From a virus: 45,631 nt of DNA. Where the stretch lies: IMG/VR virus record IMGVR_UViG_3300044612_003744, positions 1 to 45,631 of that record; one strand, written 5' to 3'. Positions 3,118 to 8,836 of this stretch are shown in pieces. The position numbers were made by a program, and so were the translations under genes. Under the pieces are notes generated by a model that searched no databases, had not been told where the DNA came from, and was given only the letters and a program-made list of their open reading frames with translations. Numbering within the stretch: the stretch's first letter is position 1; the number at the start of each line of letters is the position of its first letter.

Positions 3118-3804
3118 ATGGAAAATCAATTCCTTCTAGTTGATTGCTGCAACAACGGAGGATTTACCATGAGTCTTAACGAGTCAGTCTCCGATAGGGG
3201 ACTGACTAAGTTCAAAGGTAAATTCCAAGAAGCAGAAGCAATCAATAAAAATAAAAGAATCTATCCATACGGAGTTCTTGACGAAAATGTTAAGAAACTT
3301 CTGCCGATTATCCAAAACCGTGGCCTGATCGGAGAACTCGATCACCCAACCGATTCTATAATCCACTTTGAAAAATGCTCTCACATTGTTACTAAACTAT
3401 GGTGGGAAGGCAACAACCTAATGGGAGAGGGAGAAATCCTCAATACACCACATGGGAAAATTCTAAAGGCCCTACTGAACGATGGAGTTCGTGTGGGGAT
3501 ATCAAGCCGTGGAGTAGGAAACGGAAGAAGCGACGAGAATGGAATCCTTGTGATTGGTGAAAGCTACAAACTCATTACCTTCGATGCTGTAGCAGATCCA
3601 AGCACACACTCAGCATTTCAGGAGAAAGTGTCGAGTGGTAAGAAAGAAAGTTATGCCCCAACTGCAAATAATGCAGAAATTTCTAAAAATGCGGTTAAAA
3701 ACGAAAGTAGCCGCATACATAATGTCAGAAAAGATGCATTGTTGGCTTGTTTGGGCGGAATAATCGAACAACAAACACGAAACATTACAGCGAGGTTAGG
3801 CTAA
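3118..3804 (+). CDS. Prohead maturation serine protease, T4 gp21-like
   Basis: 228 residues, start at 3118 after AAGGAG. It contains the family blocks in order: FQEAEAINKNKRIYP, GELDHP (catalytic His), HIVTKLWWEGNNLMGEGEIL, TPHGKILKALL, VGISSRG (catalytic Ser) and FDAVADPS. These match the T4 gp21 / S77-type phage prohead protease. The enzyme digests the scaffold and trims capsid and internal proteins at [LI]-x-E sites during head maturation. Its stop overlaps the scaffold start (TAATG). A downstream in-frame ATG (MSLNES) would remove 16 extra N-terminal residues and is an alternative start. Confidence 0.93.
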   Translation: MENQFLLVDCCNNGGFTMSLNESVSDRGLTKFKGKFQEAEAINKNKRIYPYGVLDENVKKLLPIIQNRGLIGELDHPTDSIIHFEKCSHIVTKLWWEGNNLMGEGEILNTPHGKILKALLNDGVRVGISSRGVGNGRSDENGILVIGESYKLITFDAVADPSTHSAFQEKVSSGKKESYAPTANNAEISKNAVKNESSRIHNVRKDALLACLGGIIEQQTRNITARLG

Positions 3805-4703
3805 TGGACAAGATCGTAGAAGCATTGAAGAATCTCCTACCGGAGAATGAAGTTAATGAAGTCGCTAACGCCGTTGGCGAACTACTTGAGCAGGCCAAGG
3901 AATCCCTTGAATTTGAGTATAATCAGAAACTTGAGGAAGCCTATGCCGAACTCACCAGCGAACTAGCTGAGGCTGAAAAGATTGCAGAACAAGGCTATGA
4001 AGAAGCCTACTCAATAATTGGAGACCTCAGAAATCGCCTTGAAGTTCAAGGTCAGGAATATAACTCCGCTCTCGAAGAAGGATATGAAGAAGCATACCAG
4101 ATGCTTAAATCTGAAAGAGCTAAGAACGAAAACCTTGAAGTCGATATGTATGAAGAATACGACCATAAACTGGCCGAGATGAAAGAATACATCGTTGACA
4201 AGGTCGATCAGTTCCTCCAGATCAAGGGCAGCGAAATCTACGAACAAGCCCGCCGTGATGTTCTCACAGACCCAAGACTTGCAGAACACAAGGTCGCTCT
4301 CGACAAGATCGTTAATATCGCCTCAAACTACATCAGCAATGATGAATACGGTGTAAGCGGCGAAAGACTTGAAGAAGCTACCCGTGAAGTTGAAGCTATG
4401 AGGGGCCAAATGAGAATCCTTGAAGCAAGAAACATTCGTATCAGCACCGAAAACACCAAGCTGAACGAAGCAGTTCGTCAAGCTAATGACCTCATCACCG
4501 AAAGCCGCAGATTTGTGGCCAAGGAAAGGAAGTCAGCAGTTATTTCCGAACAGAATGAAAGAGCGCAGAAAGCAAAGAATGTATCGGGGAGAGGAAGCAT
4601 TTCCAGCGATAATGTTGTTATTTCGGAACATAACAACTCCTCTGCTGGAGGTTCTGACATGGACCAATTGTTGGTCCTGTCGGGTCTGAAACAAACTAAG
4701 TAA
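3804..4703 (+). CDS. Prohead scaffold protein, T4 gp22-like
   Basis: 299 residues from the ATG overlapping the protease stop (TAATG), with GAGG upstream; an upstream in-frame ATG at 3747 lies inside the protease gene and is less likely. The protein is acidic and almost entirely coiled coil, with repeated EAYxELxxELAEAEKIAEQ-type heptads and several [LI]-x-E triplets where the protease could cut. Gene order protease-scaffold-capsid is that of T4 21-22-23. It would form the inner core around which the head assembles and then be degraded. Confidence 0.85.
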   Translation: MDKIVEALKNLLPENEVNEVANAVGELLEQAKESLEFEYNQKLEEAYAELTSELAEAEKIAEQGYEEAYSIIGDLRNRLEVQGQEYNSALEEGYEEAYQMLKSERAKNENLEVDMYEEYDHKLAEMKEYIVDKVDQFLQIKGSEIYEQARRDVLTDPRLAEHKVALDKIVNIASNYISNDEYGVSGERLEEATREVEAMRGQMRILEARNIRISTENTKLNEAVRQANDLITESRRFVAKERKSAVISEQNERAQKAKNVSGRGSISSDNVVISEHNNSSAGGSDMDQLLVLSGLKQTK

Positions 4704-4734: not shown

Positions 4735-6171
4735 ATGAACGCTAATTCTAGATTTTTGAACGAGGCTAGGGAGCTAGAAACTCGTTGGAAGCAGACCGGA
4801 CTCCTTGAAGGCATTCAAGATCGTTATGTCCGCTCCGCTACCGCAGTTCTGCTCGAAAACCAGAGACTCATGAACGAAGTCTCAACCGATACTGGAGATG
4901 TCGCACAGTTCAAGAGGATTTCAATTCCACTTGTTCGTCGTATCTACCCACAGCTTATCGCAAATAAGATCGTTTCCGTACAGCCTCTCCTTGGCCCAAC
5001 CGGCTTGGTCTACTATCTCCGCTTCCGTTATTCAAGCAACAAGGGCGCTACCCGTGGTGCTGACAATAACGGCGGATTCCCCGGCGACGATGCCAACTCA
5101 CTCATGCAGAGAGCCGATGGTACTGCCAATCTCGACATCTTCTATTCCAGCCAGTTCATCCAGAATGAAACAACCAGCACTGATGCTGGCGCTGGTGTTG
5201 TAAGCGTGTTCGCTCCTCTTGAACACACGCCAATCCTTGCCGGAACAATAACAGGCACTATCTATGATGGCGCTACTGCTATTCAAACATTCACCGTGTC
5301 TGCTAGCGGAACTTTCACCTTCTCAGATATCGGCTCTCCTTCACCAAAGGTTACATCTGGTACTCTTCAGACAACCACAGGCGAACTCACCCTTACTTGG
5401 AACGGCGCTCCCGGCTCAAACAACGCAGTTTTGAGCTACGAATACAACATGGAGTGCAACCAAGATCTTCCTGAAATCAATCTCGTAATTGAATCAGAAG
5501 AAATCGCTGCTAAGACCCGTAAGCTCAAGGCTGTATGGTCTTATGAAGCACAGCAGGATCTTCGCTCACAGCACAATCTTGACGCTGAAGCTGAACTCAC
5601 CGCTGTTCTCGCTCAGGAAATCAACCTCGAAATCGACCGTGAAGTTCTCACCGATCTTCGCAACAACGCAGGTACTGTCTCAGCTTGGGACTTCAACACT
5701 GCACTCGGCGAAACGATCAAGGAAAAGTACGAAAGCCTTTATGTTAAGGTTGTCGAAATTTCCAATGTCATCCACAGAAAGACCCTTCGTGGTGGCGCAA
5801 ACTTCATCGTGACCTCACCTGAAGTTGCTTCAATCTTTGAAACAGCAACAGCCGGTTTCGCTCCTGCACCTTCTGAAACCTTCACAAGCTCACTCGGCAT
5901 CCAGTATGTCGGCACCGTGAACAATCGCTGGAGACTCTACAAAGATCCTCTCTTCCCAAGCAATCAGTTGTTGATGGGTTACAAGGGCGACTCTTACATG
6001 GACAGCGGATACTTCTACTGCCCATATGTTCCATTGACCCAGACACCAGTTGTTCTCGATCCAGAGAGCTTCTGCCCACGCAAGGGAATTCTCACTCGCT
6101 ATGGAAAAAAGCTGCTTCGTGAGGGGGCAAAATTTTACGCACGCCTCAGTATTGCTAATTTCGTCATCTGA
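4735..6171 (+). CDS. Major capsid protein, T4 gp23-like
   Basis: 478 residues. Blocks typical of gp23 include LVRRIYPQLIANKIVSVQPL (about 56-75), GPTGLVYYLRFRY, and KTRKLKAVWSYEAQQDL followed by an ELTAVLAQEINLEIDREV helix. The N-terminal propeptide is expected to be removed by the prohead protease; LLE at 39-41 or the Glu at 48 are candidate cut points. Residues about 165-225 form a Thr/Gly/Ser-rich beta segment, probably the surface insertion domain. Codon use is richer in G and C than in most of the window, as expected for a very highly expressed gene. A strong terminator follows. Confidence 0.95.
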   Translation: MNANSRFLNEARELETRWKQTGLLEGIQDRYVRSATAVLLENQRLMNEVSTDTGDVAQFKRISIPLVRRIYPQLIANKIVSVQPLLGPTGLVYYLRFRYSSNKGATRGADNNGGFPGDDANSLMQRADGTANLDIFYSSQFIQNETTSTDAGAGVVSVFAPLEHTPILAGTITGTIYDGATAIQTFTVSASGTFTFSDIGSPSPKVTSGTLQTTTGELTLTWNGAPGSNNAVLSYEYNMECNQDLPEINLVIESEEIAAKTRKLKAVWSYEAQQDLRSQHNLDAEAELTAVLAQEINLEIDREVLTDLRNNAGTVSAWDFNTALGETIKEKYESLYVKVVEISNVIHRKTLRGGANFIVTSPEVASIFETATAGFAPAPSETFTSSLGIQYVGTVNNRWRLYKDPLFPSNQLLMGYKGDSYMDSGYFYCPYVPLTQTPVVLDPESFCPRKGILTRYGKKLLREGAKFYARLSIANFVI

Positions 6172-6278: not shown

Positions 6279-6306
6279 TTGATTTCTAAAATTTGCTTAC
6301 TATAAT
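6279..6306 (+). promoter_or_regulatory. Host-like sigma70 promoter for the homing endonuclease
   Basis: TTGATT (6279-6284), a 16-nt spacer, and a perfect TATAAT (6301-6306). It lies after the capsid terminator and 34 nt before the endonuclease start, giving that gene its own early, host-polymerase-driven transcription. Confidence 0.7.
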
Positions 6307-6340
6307 ACCTTTGCGGGGCAATAAGAAAAAGAGGTGTTAC

Positions 6341-7870
6341 ATGGAACCGAACATCATCGTGATGAATGAGTTGAATCAGAATAAGCATTGGGCTAAGGAA
6401 GTCCTTGAAGTTGCCCGCAAAACAAATCCAAATTCATTCCTTTTCTATAAACATGAATTCATAAAAAAAGAACAACAGATCAAATCACATGTTAATTCAT
6501 ACACAAGCAACAACATGAGATCGGTTTTTGCAAGAAAATGCAAAGTAACAGCAATTGAAACTGATGTGATGAGAAAATTCTGTAATAAATATCACATTCA
6601 AGGAGCAAACACCCTTGCGATTATTGCATTTGGAATATTTGAAGGAGATGAGCTTCTAGGAGTTCTTTCTTTGGGAAGACATCATCGCAACAATGAAGAT
6701 GTTTTGCTTGATAGGATGTGTTTTAAGAATAATGTAAGGGTAGTTGGTGGAGCCAGTAAATTATTTAATGCTGCTGTAGTTTGGGCAAAAGCTCAAGGAA
6801 TCGATAAGATAATCAGCTTTAGTGATAATCGTTACAGTCTTGGAACTGTTTATGATAAACTCGGCTTTACTTTAGAAAGTGAATTGGTTCCTGATTACTT
6901 TTATGTTGAGCGTGAAAATATTGAAAAGGCTTATAGCAAACAAAGCCAAAAAAAGCAGAATGTTGACTGTCCAGAAGGAATGACAGAAAGGCAATGGGCA
7001 GAAGAAAGAGGTTTGGTTCAGGTTTATGACGCTGGAAAAAAGCGTTGGATATACAAACTTAGAAAAGTTGTTACAAATTCATTTGCTACTCGCAGGCATG
7101 GTTTTTATGAAACTAAAAAAAGCAGACCGAAAACAATTTATTATCAATCAAGCTATGAGTTAAGAGCGGCAACAATACTTGACAACGATGAAGCTGTTGA
7201 TTTTTATACTACTCAAGTTACAGCTTCTATTGACGGAAGGGAAAGAATTATTGATTTTCTCGTTACATACAAATCTGGCGTTGTTTCAATAATTGAAGTC
7301 AAACCAAGACTCAAAATAGAAGCATGTAAGCAACAAATTGAAGACAACAAGAAAATTGCTCGTGAAAACAGTTGGAGATTCCAGTTGTGGACAGAGACAG
7401 AACTGGGATTTGATTCTGAATACAAAGCTGTTTGTTGGGCTGACATGTTTCTTTCAGAAATACAAGGAATTGATTATGTAGAAGAAAGAAGAGATCGTCG
7501 CAATGAAAGTGTGAAAAAACATTACAAAAAACATATAGCTACAAAAACTGTAGAAGTCCCCTGTGCCTTCTGTAATGAGGTTCATACGGCTCTGAGGCTG
7601 ACTTATGACAAGAACATAGCTAGGAATGGGCGATACATTTGTGAGCGTGAGGGAGGGCATATAGCTGGCAGCAAACCTAAATTGAGTTTGAGGAAAGATA
7701 ATCCCCATTCATGTGATGGTAAGAAGGAATGTAATAAGTGTAAGGAAGTTAAATTATTTGAGCAATTTAGTCCTGACAAGAGCAAGCGTGATGGATATTG
7801 TACTATGTGTAAGCCTTGTCGTTCTGAGAAGATGAAGGCTCTGTATGAGTCAAAGAAAAAGAAAAAATAA
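6341..7870 (+). CDS. Composite homing endonuclease: GNAT-like + PD-(D/E)XK nuclease + zinc finger
   Basis: 509 residues from the ATG with GAGGTG upstream; a longer frame to 6293 overlaps the promoter. The N-terminal part (about 60-200) has GVLSLGRHH and SDNRYSLGTVYDKLGF, a GNAT-like fold seen in phage Hef-like homing endonucleases. The middle has YYQSSYELRAA, then IIDFLVTYKSG and IIEVKP, the D...ExK core of a TnsA/Vsr-like nuclease. The C-terminus has two Cys-rich modules, including CNKCKEVKLFEQF and CTMCKPC, a DNA-reading zinc finger common in homing nucleases. It sits alone between the capsid gene and the next module, like freestanding intron-less homing genes of T4. Codon use is more AT-rich than the capsid gene. 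Confidence 0.8.
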   Translation: MEPNIIVMNELNQNKHWAKEVLEVARKTNPNSFLFYKHEFIKKEQQIKSHVNSYTSNNMRSVFARKCKVTAIETDVMRKFCNKYHIQGANTLAIIAFGIFEGDELLGVLSLGRHHRNNEDVLLDRMCFKNNVRVVGGASKLFNAAVVWAKAQGIDKIISFSDNRYSLGTVYDKLGFTLESELVPDYFYVERENIEKAYSKQSQKKQNVDCPEGMTERQWAEERGLVQVYDAGKKRWIYKLRKVVTNSFATRRHGFYETKKSRPKTIYYQSSYELRAATILDNDEAVDFYTTQVTASIDGRERIIDFLVTYKSGVVSIIEVKPRLKIEACKQQIEDNKKIARENSWRFQLWTETELGFDSEYKAVCWADMFLSEIQGIDYVEERRDRRNESVKKHYKKHIATKTVEVPCAFCNEVHTALRLTYDKNIARNGRYICEREGGHIAGSKPKLSLRKDNPHSCDGKKECNKCKEVKLFEQFSPDKSKRDGYCTMCKPCRSEKMKALYESKKKKK

Positions 7871-7951: not shown

Positions 7952-7959
7952 CATAAATA
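7952..7959 (+). promoter_or_regulatory. Late-type promoter octamer CATAAATA, 4 nt from ATG
   Basis: CATAAATA followed by ACAT and then the ATG at 7964, with no ribosome site. If used like the T4 late box, transcription would begin at or next to the start codon. Confidence 0.55.
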
Positions 7960-7963
7960 ACAT

Positions 7964-8836
7964 ATGGAATTCCGTAATTTTATTGAAAACGCATCATTAA
8001 ATGAGTGTGTGGTTGCTGGTGTGCGACTACAGGATGGTGTTGTATTGGCCAAGAATCGTGATCGTGGATACAAGGCCAATGTTGAAATAATTCATGAATT
8101 AATTAATGGTACAGAGGTTATGTACTGGCATGATATTGATACAGATTGGTGTGAAGGGATGAATGAGTATGGTTTAGGGATGGTGAGTAGTAGTTTGATG
8201 GTGAATCAGGATGAGAAGGAAGGATTGCGTGTTATAAATGGCAAGAAGGTTCCTGACGACAAGCATAAGAAGATAGTAACAAATGAGGGCAATAAGATAA
8301 GGCAGGCTTTGTCGCATGTTAATCTTAAAGACATGGTTCATAGCATTGTGAATGGCAAGAATAAAAAGGGTAAGAATGTTGGTCTTCGTGGTCAGACATT
8401 GGTAAGTGATGGTGTTAATTTATATGCTTTAGAAATCACAAAAGATAGCAAGGTTGTTAAAAGGGTTTCGGATGATGATTCTGTGACTGTGAGAACAAAT
8501 CATGGCATATATGACAAAGAAGCTGGTTATAACAAGGGTAGGAAGAAGGAGTCTTCTCACAGCAGGATGAATTTGGCTCAGAAGAATTTGGTGGATGTTA
8601 ATTTGCCAAGTGATGTTTTGGACATTTTGAAAAAAAAATATGTATCTGATCCATTTTTGAATCCTTACAGGACAAAGAGTCCATGGTTGATGCATACGAC
8701 TGGTCAAATTTTATTGGATTTGAAAAATTTGCGTGTTATGGTCAGGATGGATAAGGACGAGGGTGTATTTCGTGGTATTGTAAATAACTTGCCTATTGGT
8801 TATAATTCAAAGATCAGGGTTGTTGTTGAGCATTAA
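7964..8836 (+). CDS. Ntn-type (choloylglycine/C45/C69-like) amidohydrolase with head-targeting propeptide
   Basis: 290 residues starting MEFRNFIENASLNE-C. From Cys15 the layout is that of N-terminal-nucleophile amide hydrolases: CVVAGVRL (nucleophile Cys15), VLAKNRDRGY (Asp33), WCEGMNEYGLGMV (65-74), NLYALEIT (152-159), VRTNHG (Asn179) and SSHSRM (Arg201), matching the Cys, Asp, Asn and Arg positions of bile-salt hydrolase/penicillin V acylase. These enzymes need removal of everything before the Cys. The preceding triplet L-N-E fits the prohead protease, so cleavage after Glu14 would expose the nucleophile. The substrate is unknown; an amide in the cell envelope or a signalling molecule is possible. 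Confidence 0.82.
   Translation: MEFRNFIENASLNECVVAGVRLQDGVVLAKNRDRGYKANVEIIHELINGTEVMYWHDIDTDWCEGMNEYGLGMVSSSLMVNQDEKEGLRVINGKKVPDDKHKKIVTNEGNKIRQALSHVNLKDMVHSIVNGKNKKGKNVGLRGQTLVSDGVNLYALEITKDSKVVKRVSDDDSVTVRTNHGIYDKEAGYNKGRKKESSHSRMNLAQKNLVDVNLPSDVLDILKKKYVSDPFLNPYRTKSPWLMHTTGQILLDLKNLRVMVRMDKDEGVFRGIVNNLPIGYNSKIRVVVEH

Follow-up and report, generated by a model that had tools for sequence, protein, structure and literature searches.

A phage Ntn hydrolase precursor whose catalytic cysteine is predicted to be freed by the head-maturation protease

Positions 7964–8836 of a 45.6-kb virus record (the whole stretch of DNA analysed, referred to as the window) were predicted by structural modelling to encode an Ntn hydrolase of the penicillin V acylase / C45 type, which is likely packaged as a proenzyme and then switched on in trans when the phage's head-maturation protease cuts it. 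The predicted Ntn fold, the position of the nucleophile, the conservation of the cleavage site, the resemblance of the propeptide to capsid-targeting tags and the co-occurrence of the protease were shown by computation; cleavage, packaging, injection and activity were inferred from the sequence and the predicted structure.

In the proposed mechanism, the amide hydrolase would be made as an inactive precursor, inactive because a 14-residue propeptide masks the catalytic Cys15. The start of the propeptide, EFRNFIEN, would act as a T4-like capsid-targeting sequence and carry the precursor into the prohead core, where the S77 protease, while maturing the head, would cut at E14↓C15 (the arrow marks the cleavage place) after L12-N13-E14. 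This cut would strip the tag and make Cys15 N-terminal, supplying the alpha-amino group for Ntn catalysis, and the freed Cys15 would serve as catalytic base and nucleophile. The enzyme would gain its activity only in the capsid as this matures; by analogy with the internal proteins of T4, it may then be delivered with the DNA and hydrolyse an amide bond at an early stage of infection. For the cleavage step the sequence evidence is strong, in the absence of protein data; for packaging the evidence is good in the case of the window's phage, and packaging remains inferred without virion data.

A preliminary description, made from the sequence alone, had proposed that head maturation activates the enzyme. 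This was supported at the sequence level, the S77 cut, presence in the virion and injection still being inferred, and it gained support not contained in that description from the resemblance of the propeptide to T4 capsid-targeting sequences. Autocatalytic removal of the propeptide, which it had named as a refuting result, remains possible. Its statement that no phage example was described held within the open-licence PMC literature searched (including PMC10537231, PMC7824862 and PMC13414440), in which no case of a prohead protease activating a phage Ntn enzyme was found. Packaged tag-bearing internal proteins and Ntn proenzymes were already known separately; new, by inference, is their combination via the head protease.

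Ntn hydrolases are normally self-processing, or are freed by removal of Met or of a signal peptide. If the reading is true, this enzyme would be activated by a route new for Ntn hydrolases, namely a viral protease dedicated to maturation, and head maturation would do more than strip off a tag: it would arm an enzyme that has been packaged. A [hydrophobic]-x-E immediately before a catalytic residue could then be used as a sequence rule for finding capsid-activated enzymes. The Chryseobacterium phages MA9V-1 and MA9V-2 are an isolated pair carrying the gene and are open to direct testing; the term 'mass spectrometry' occurs in neither main text of the MA9V papers, and the MA9V-1 paper contains an SDS-PAGE gel.

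Predicted proenzyme, fold and gene surroundings

Table 1 Features of the window around the Ntn gene (nucleotide positions)
Feature	Positions	Strand	Basis or remark
S77 prohead core protease, predicted activator	3118..3804	+	Pfam PF03420 (Peptidase_S77), E 4.7e-25
Probable scaffold (gp22-like)	3804..4703	+	position only, between protease and capsid gene
Major capsid protein gp23	4735..6171	+	PF07068, E 4.4e-87
Mom/GNAT + TnsA-like + endonuclease-VII-like hybrid, homing endonuclease type	6293..7870	+	between capsid and Ntn genes
CATAAATA, T4 late -10-like element	7952..7959	+	4 nt before ATG of Ntn ORF
Ntn amidohydrolase proenzyme, 290 aa	7964..8836	+	translation and predicted fold
Propeptide M1-E14 (MEFRNFIENASLNE): T4 capsid-targeting-like tag, then predicted cleavage site	7964..8005	+	
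L12-N13-E14, predicted prohead-protease site adjoining the nucleophile	7997..8005	+	
Mature Ntn hydrolase, residues 15-290 (predicted)	8006..8833	+	
Codon of Cys15	8006..8008	+	
Codon of Asp33	8060..8062	+	
Codon of Asn179	8498..8500	+	
Codon of Arg201	8564..8566	+	

In the translation of the Ntn ORF, MEFRNFIENASLNE is followed by C15 and then by VVAGVRLQDGVVLAKNRD. The gene order of the window is S77 protease, probable scaffold, gp23, homing-endonuclease-like hybrid and Ntn ORF (Table 1). The protease also matched phrog_207, head maturation protease (E 1.2e-48), and S-L-N-E is present in its N-terminal region as well. The scaffold candidate, scanned as 3747–4703, gave no Pfam match over the cut-off and no PHROG match. 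An identical Ntn protein is encoded on the 136.7-kb contig G001, where the tag-bearing ORF, the protease and the capsid gene have the same order and spacing as in the window; G001 was therefore taken as the fuller genome of the window's phage.

The octamer before the Ntn ATG resembles the T4 late -10 element, which is TATAAATA. It was selected after having been seen at this place, and was found in 11 copies on both strands of the window against 3.0 expected, a number reached in 0 of 100 shuffles. TATAAATA itself occurred 6 times against 2.9 expected, and 8 of 100 shuffles reached 6. Since several copies of CATAAATA directly precede genes, it is perhaps a late promoter element of the window's phage.

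An AlphaFold2 model based on a 42-row alignment reached a pLDDT of 88.6 and a pTM of 0.89, with residues 1–8 and 95–104 scoring below pLDDT 50. Fold neighbours were listed by Foldseek and VIA-align. The top VIA-align match was CV2077, a structure without a name (Z 21.1, rmsd 3.0, 221 residues), and the list further contained NAAA (Z up to 20.7), isopenicillin N acyltransferase (19.4), acid ceramidase, bile salt hydrolases (about 16–18) and penicillin V acylases (16.3–16.8). In the fold alignments Cys15 is the first aligned residue and falls on residue 1 in penicillin V acylase, 2 in bile salt hydrolase and 103 in the acyltransferase, which are taken to be the nucleophiles of these enzymes. All enzyme-named fold matches are Ntn hydrolases, and the predicted structure has the Ntn alpha-beta-beta-alpha fold.

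By profile comparison, the window protein scored 18.4 bits against AAT (PF03417; curated cut-off 23.2) and 26.2 bits against C45_proenzyme (NF040521; curated cut-off 85), below both; among the 42 aligned relatives, a match at E ≤ 0.01 was obtained for 40 with C45_proenzyme and for 23 with AAT. The protein is a distant relative of C45 / AAT and not a member by curated cut-offs. PF02275 (CBAH) gave 0 matches in the window record, while 4 of 14 control genomes were matched. A sequence search of solved structures returned no match for the protein, and with the alignment it returned nine rows, none of them Ntn; among predicted viral structures there were three matches at E ≤ 0.001, one 'uncharacterized' and two nameless in the tables used.

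Cys15, Asp33, Asn179 and Arg201 were invariant in 76 of 76 representatives, obtained by removing rows over 90% identical, with the window included. Within the positions printed, 18 further polar positions were likewise invariant (K30, N31, R32, R34, Y36, E51, D57, D61, E64, N67, D83, E84, E157, R177, H180, R236, T245 and Q248). The nucleophile and the Asp/Asn/Arg set of the Ntn superfamily are thereby present; that Cys15 is N-terminal in vivo is inferred. Four claims of the preliminary description held at this level: L-N-E directly precedes Cys15, as confirmed in the ORF translation, and the site is kept across the relatives examined; Asp33, Asn179 and Arg201 are at the positions it gave; the gene at 3118 is the prohead protease, S77 by Pfam and by phrog_207; and the Ntn fold, left by it to structure prediction, was obtained with Cys15 on the nucleophile position. 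Because many of the invariant residues are charged, a polar substrate rather than a lipid is possible, which is a weak inference.

It is very unlikely that the protein is packaged and cut but that the cut merely removes a tag from an inactive enzyme with a structural or DNA-binding role. In favour of this, T4 internal proteins lose their tags, and Alt is the sole enzyme named among them in the relevant passages (PMC9026906). Against it stand the invariance of Cys15, Asp33, Asn179, Arg201 and the 18 further polar positions in all 76 representatives, the position of the cut exactly at the nucleophile, and the existence of relatives with the start Met directly before the Cys (M↓C forms), which free the Cys as well.

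C45 / AAT (isopenicillin N acyltransferase) and NAAA / acid ceramidase are among the best fold and profile matches and share the Ntn fold and the Cys nucleophile with the window protein. These enzymes cleave themselves, unlike the proposed window enzyme, and are not known to carry an [LI]xE site. Penicillin V acylase and bile salt hydrolase (PF02275, CBAH) are alike in that Cys15 falls on their residue 1 or 2, and bile salt hydrolases expose their Cys as the M↓C phage forms do; the window protein differs from both in having a propeptide with a protease motif in place of Met removal or self-cleavage. The nearest precedent found, by label only, is A284L of PBCV-1, listed with a choloylglycine hydrolase label in a table in the section 'PBCV-1 DNA binding proteins' (PMC3281028). 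It is likewise an Ntn-type amidase label in a large DNA virus, relatedness not being established, but it belongs to a chlorovirus of an alga, and the relevant passage holds no activation by a prohead protease (PMC3281028).

In one relative (L130, 10001–11572), a C-terminal extension of about 250 residues was observed on the Ntn domain.

The residue before the nucleophile

Relatives were collected by three alignment-based IMG/VR scans, which gave 186, 450 and 427 related stretches. Only the best 80 of each were examined, and more distant relatives are therefore not covered by the counts. Among 50,697 phage records searched at E 1e-3, only MA9V-1 and MA9V-2 matched. From 226 loci, 224 ORF rows were obtained, L008 and L201 being omitted with the Cys cut off by the contig end; among the rows are contigs fetched more than once.

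The residue before the Cys was Glu in 209 of the 224 rows and the start Met in 15, with no other residue found. Among the 76 representatives, the same was seen in 70 (Glu) and 6 (start Met), and in the latter six the open frame has no ATG upstream of that Met. In the 70 Glu forms, P3 was L in 40, I in 26, V in 2, F in 1 and M in 1 (L/I in 66 of 70), P4 was hydrophobic in 36, and the Glu codon was GAA in 48 and GAG in 22. The entropy over these forms was 0 bits at P1 and 1.3 at P3, compared with 2.8–3.6 at P2 and P4–P10. All relatives examined would accordingly be expected to yield an N-terminal Cys, either by removal of the start Met or by a cut after [hydrophobic]-x-E, the cut being inferred from the sequence.

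Propeptide entropies and lengths were counted from the first start codon only; for 5 of the 76 representatives, which lack an upstream ATG, a GTG or TTG start was assumed. Lengths ranged from 4 to 334 residues. Propeptides of 7 residues or fewer were found in 13 of the 70 Glu forms, and in 8 of the 70 they comprised only 4–5 residues (MINE, MLNE, MKLLE, LKLLE and MKLSE); in L151, L172, L181, L185 and L083, a stop codon stands immediately before the ATG of the short propeptide. Seven relatives have an open frame extending 63–341 residues upstream, in which the site still adjoins the Cys and start codons are not fixed. Clustering of the propeptides gave 24, 31 or 34 clusters at three cut-offs, 13 of these being propeptides too short for comparison.

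Two trivial explanations were rejected. For one sequence, an exact [LI]-x-E before the Cys has a chance of about 1 in 100 (frequencies 0.144 and 0.071); chance placement of L-N-E was ruled out by the family, with its 209 Glu and 15 Met rows. A wrongly called start, with the true start codon nearer the Cys, was ruled out for the Glu forms, in which the preceding codon encodes Glu and is no start.

One rival is that the precursor cuts off its own propeptide, as penicillin V acylase and isopenicillin N acyltransferase do, L-x-E being kept for another reason such as the fold of the precursor. It is supported by the fold neighbours, since those that bear propeptides self-process, and the precursor structures 2x1c and 2iwm are among the fold matches; propeptides of the MINE↓C type also recall the very short propeptide of penicillin V acylase. 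Against it, self-cleavage requires the nucleophile and the scissile bond, and neither a Glu at P1 nor a hydrophobic P3, whereas both were kept in 70 of 70 non-Met representatives with P2 and P4–P10 variable, which is the gp21 pattern. The existence of M↓C forms further means that the Glu is dispensable for the mature fold. Autocatalysis is considered unlikely on these grounds; since C45 and penicillin V acylase relatives self-process, it remains possible and was not excluded by computation.

Activation in trans being preferred, the distribution of the two forms can be read more boldly. A quick tree of the 76 rows required at least three changes between the Met and Glu states, all six Met rows lying within one 24-row group; the two nearest relatives of the window on this tree carry MEFKEFLFNE↓C and MDFKQFINEINE↓C. 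In the bolder reading, which is more likely than not, a widespread phage Ntn family has lost self-activation and uses the capsid-maturation protease as trans-activator, its activity being tied to head maturation, with at least three switches to or from start-Met removal on the tree. If so, phages would be choosing by these switches between an enzyme already at work in the cell that produces the virions and one that has to wait until it is packaged.

Cellular relatives were sought in one scan of genome contigs, which gave 28 pattern stretches, none of them confirmed; plasmids searched with the MA9V-2 protein likewise yielded no relative. The counts of the residue before the Cys accordingly cover viral relatives only.

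Head-maturation protease and capsid protein in the same phages

In T4, cleavage by the protease gp21 follows L/I-X-E, and the propeptides of virion proteins have 7 to 65 residues (PMC9026906). The site in the Ntn propeptide equals this published motif; the 4–5-residue propeptides described above are shorter than the shortest T4 propeptide quoted. Gp21-type proteases of the giant phages SPN3US and phiKZ also remove head-protein propeptides after Glu (PMC5694885, PMC10052503, PMC9026906), but with another motif (S/A-x-E in phiKZ), and no Ntn zymogen occurs in the relevant passages.

Fifty gene-carrying records, chosen mostly for length, were searched for S77 and gp23. S77 was found in 31 and gp23 in 31, both together in 30. 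Only G047 has gp23 without S77, its gp23 being merely a piece at the contig edge, and only in G026 was S77 found with no gp23 match. Of the 19 records without S77, 18 also lack gp23 and therefore have the appearance of fragments; this is possible and unproven, five S77-less records exceeding 100 kb (G005, G008, G010, G013 and G014). A PHROG search for S77 in the 19 records gave no match, but it matched nowhere at all and carries no weight.

At the place of T4 gp23 cleavage (F-L-T-E65↓A in the T4 reference), [LIMV]-x-E was found by eye in 29 of 29 gp23 loci, some of which are near-identical. The window gp23 has L-M-N-E↓V there (codons 4867–4878, likewise by eye); other examples are F-L-N-E↓S in MA9V-2 and L-I-N-E↓A. 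An L/I-x-E site for an S77/gp21 protease together with the protease gene in the same genome is thus present, the cutting itself being inferred.

The presence of S77 was tried as a discriminator between Glu and M↓C forms and failed: M↓C forms occur in the S77-bearing phages G023, G024, G033 and G034. The enzyme is therefore not always dependent on the protease.

The gene surroundings bear on a further rival, in which the enzyme acts outside the capsid, for example as an amidase of the tail or baseplate or of the lysis stage, alongside GH19 muralytic enzymes, and loses its propeptide elsewhere. A GH19-type cluster gene lies within 8 kb in 25 of the 76 representatives, a group of short-propeptide and M↓C forms heads a run with the clusters DS130, DS411, GH19, gp25 and gp6, and the order in L039 and L078 is gp25-gp6-NTN-GH19. 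Each cluster was named from a single scanned member, DS130 and DS411 being without a match. Against this rival, the gp21-type motif and the T4-like tag indicate the prohead; the Ntn gene of the window lies near the capsid gene, other relatives being found in different surroundings, and neighbourhood by itself cannot locate a protein. An action outside the capsid is thus held to be unlikely. The GH19 and baseplate neighbours are compatible with a virion gene or, possibly, with a role at the cell wall or tail, and are left unexplained by the capsid reading.

In G015 (77554–79197) and G032 (52406–53980), the S77 match falls in two pieces within frames of 616 and 632 aa, a pattern that an intein or another in-frame insertion could give. 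In MA9V-2 (W01, 167084–167422) and MA9V-1 (W02, 126606–126944), the S77 domain lies within frames of 1213 and 1349 aa, and the MA9V prohead protease is therefore part of a much larger protein. Two TAA codons were found inside the gp23 match of L329 (G017, 123761–125188).

Capsid-targeting-like tags

The T4 internal proteins IPI, IPII, IPIII and Alt (PMC9026906) are the closest comparison for the proposed packaging. They share with the window protein a short N-terminal tag with aromatic-x-x-Phe, cleavage at L/I-x-E by gp21, a protease of the same family, and similar head genes; they differ in that their cut frees a tag, and the passages bearing on it say nothing of an active site being built. 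T4 ipII and ipIII start with MKTYQEFIAE and ipI with MKTFKEF. Ten N-terminal residues of IPIII are enough for packaging; among them, 4 and 7 are important to targeting, and 8 and 10 to processing (PMC9026906). The window propeptide, with EFRNFIEN at its start, resembles these tags, its targeting function being inferred, and similar starts akin to those of the T4 ip proteins were found in G001 (MITFKQFLEN, MKTFKQFLES and MISFRIFLEN).

Among 181 mechanically called ORFs of G001, 18, the window protein included, carry F[KR]x[FW][LIVFM] within their first 16 residues, compared with 3 of 905 internal 16-mers. Leaving the window protein out gives 17 of 180 ORFs against the same 3 of 905 (Fisher p 2e-11), a p value that is descriptive only, the motif having been written after the tags were seen. 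A capsid-targeting-like tag, as in T4-type internal proteins, is thus present in the window protein, and 17 other G001 ORFs share the motif. With the tags removed, the G001 tag ORFs gave no body-to-body BLAST match at E 0.001. G013, which holds the relative with MDFKQFINEINE↓C, had the motif in 8 of 195 ORFs versus 3 of 975 internal 16-mers. It was absent or rare in G007 (0/323), MA9V-2 (0/265) and G011 (1/354), three of five phages, and this type of tag is therefore not general.

Similarity to the Ntn tag was also compared, at the strictest of four cut-offs, among the phage's own N-termini, internal windows and the N-termini of other genomes. Enrichment was obtained for G001 (7/180, 2/540 and 6/1137, respectively) and G007 (8/322, 6/966 and 6/995), with Fisher p values of 0.0007 and 0.009 against the N-termini of other genomes. 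The signal was weak for G011 (4/353, 1/1059 and 8/964), and no enrichment was seen for G013 (2/194, 2/582 and 14/1123) or MA9V-2 (0/264, 2/792 and 0/1053). In G007, N-termini of the MKNIIRDILKEE kind resemble the Ntn propeptide of this phage, MKNLIRSILNEE.

An [LI]xE within residues 6–24 was present in 5 of 18 G001 tag ORFs versus 32 of 163 others, and in G013 in 4 of 8 versus 28 of 187. Most G001 tag ORFs lack such a site and are therefore perhaps uncut there. In the relatives with propeptides of 4–5 residues, there is no room for a full targeting tag.

Sixteen tag ORFs of the F-K-x-[FW]-L type lie within 15 kb of G001 (83588–98278, locus L261), and this cluster may be a battery of internal proteins of the window's phage. 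Of ten tag ORFs compared with Pfam, eight gave nothing at E ≤ 0.01, one gave a sub-threshold YunG match and one a poly(A)-polymerase/CCA-type match; five of the ten were without a PHROG match. As these scans were mostly without a match, no inference on the substrate of the Ntn enzyme was drawn from them. The CCA/poly(A)-polymerase-type enzyme with a tag is located at 86966–88186 of G001 (PF01743, 5e-24).

Just downstream of the Ntn gene of G007 (215442–217086), three consecutive proteins start with MNLQEN, two of them with MNLQENIQRIKEMM, which may represent a second kind of head tag. In the window itself, a 120-aa protein encoded at 489–851 on the minus strand starts with MKTFQQYLNIKE, near the tags of T4 ipI and ipIII.
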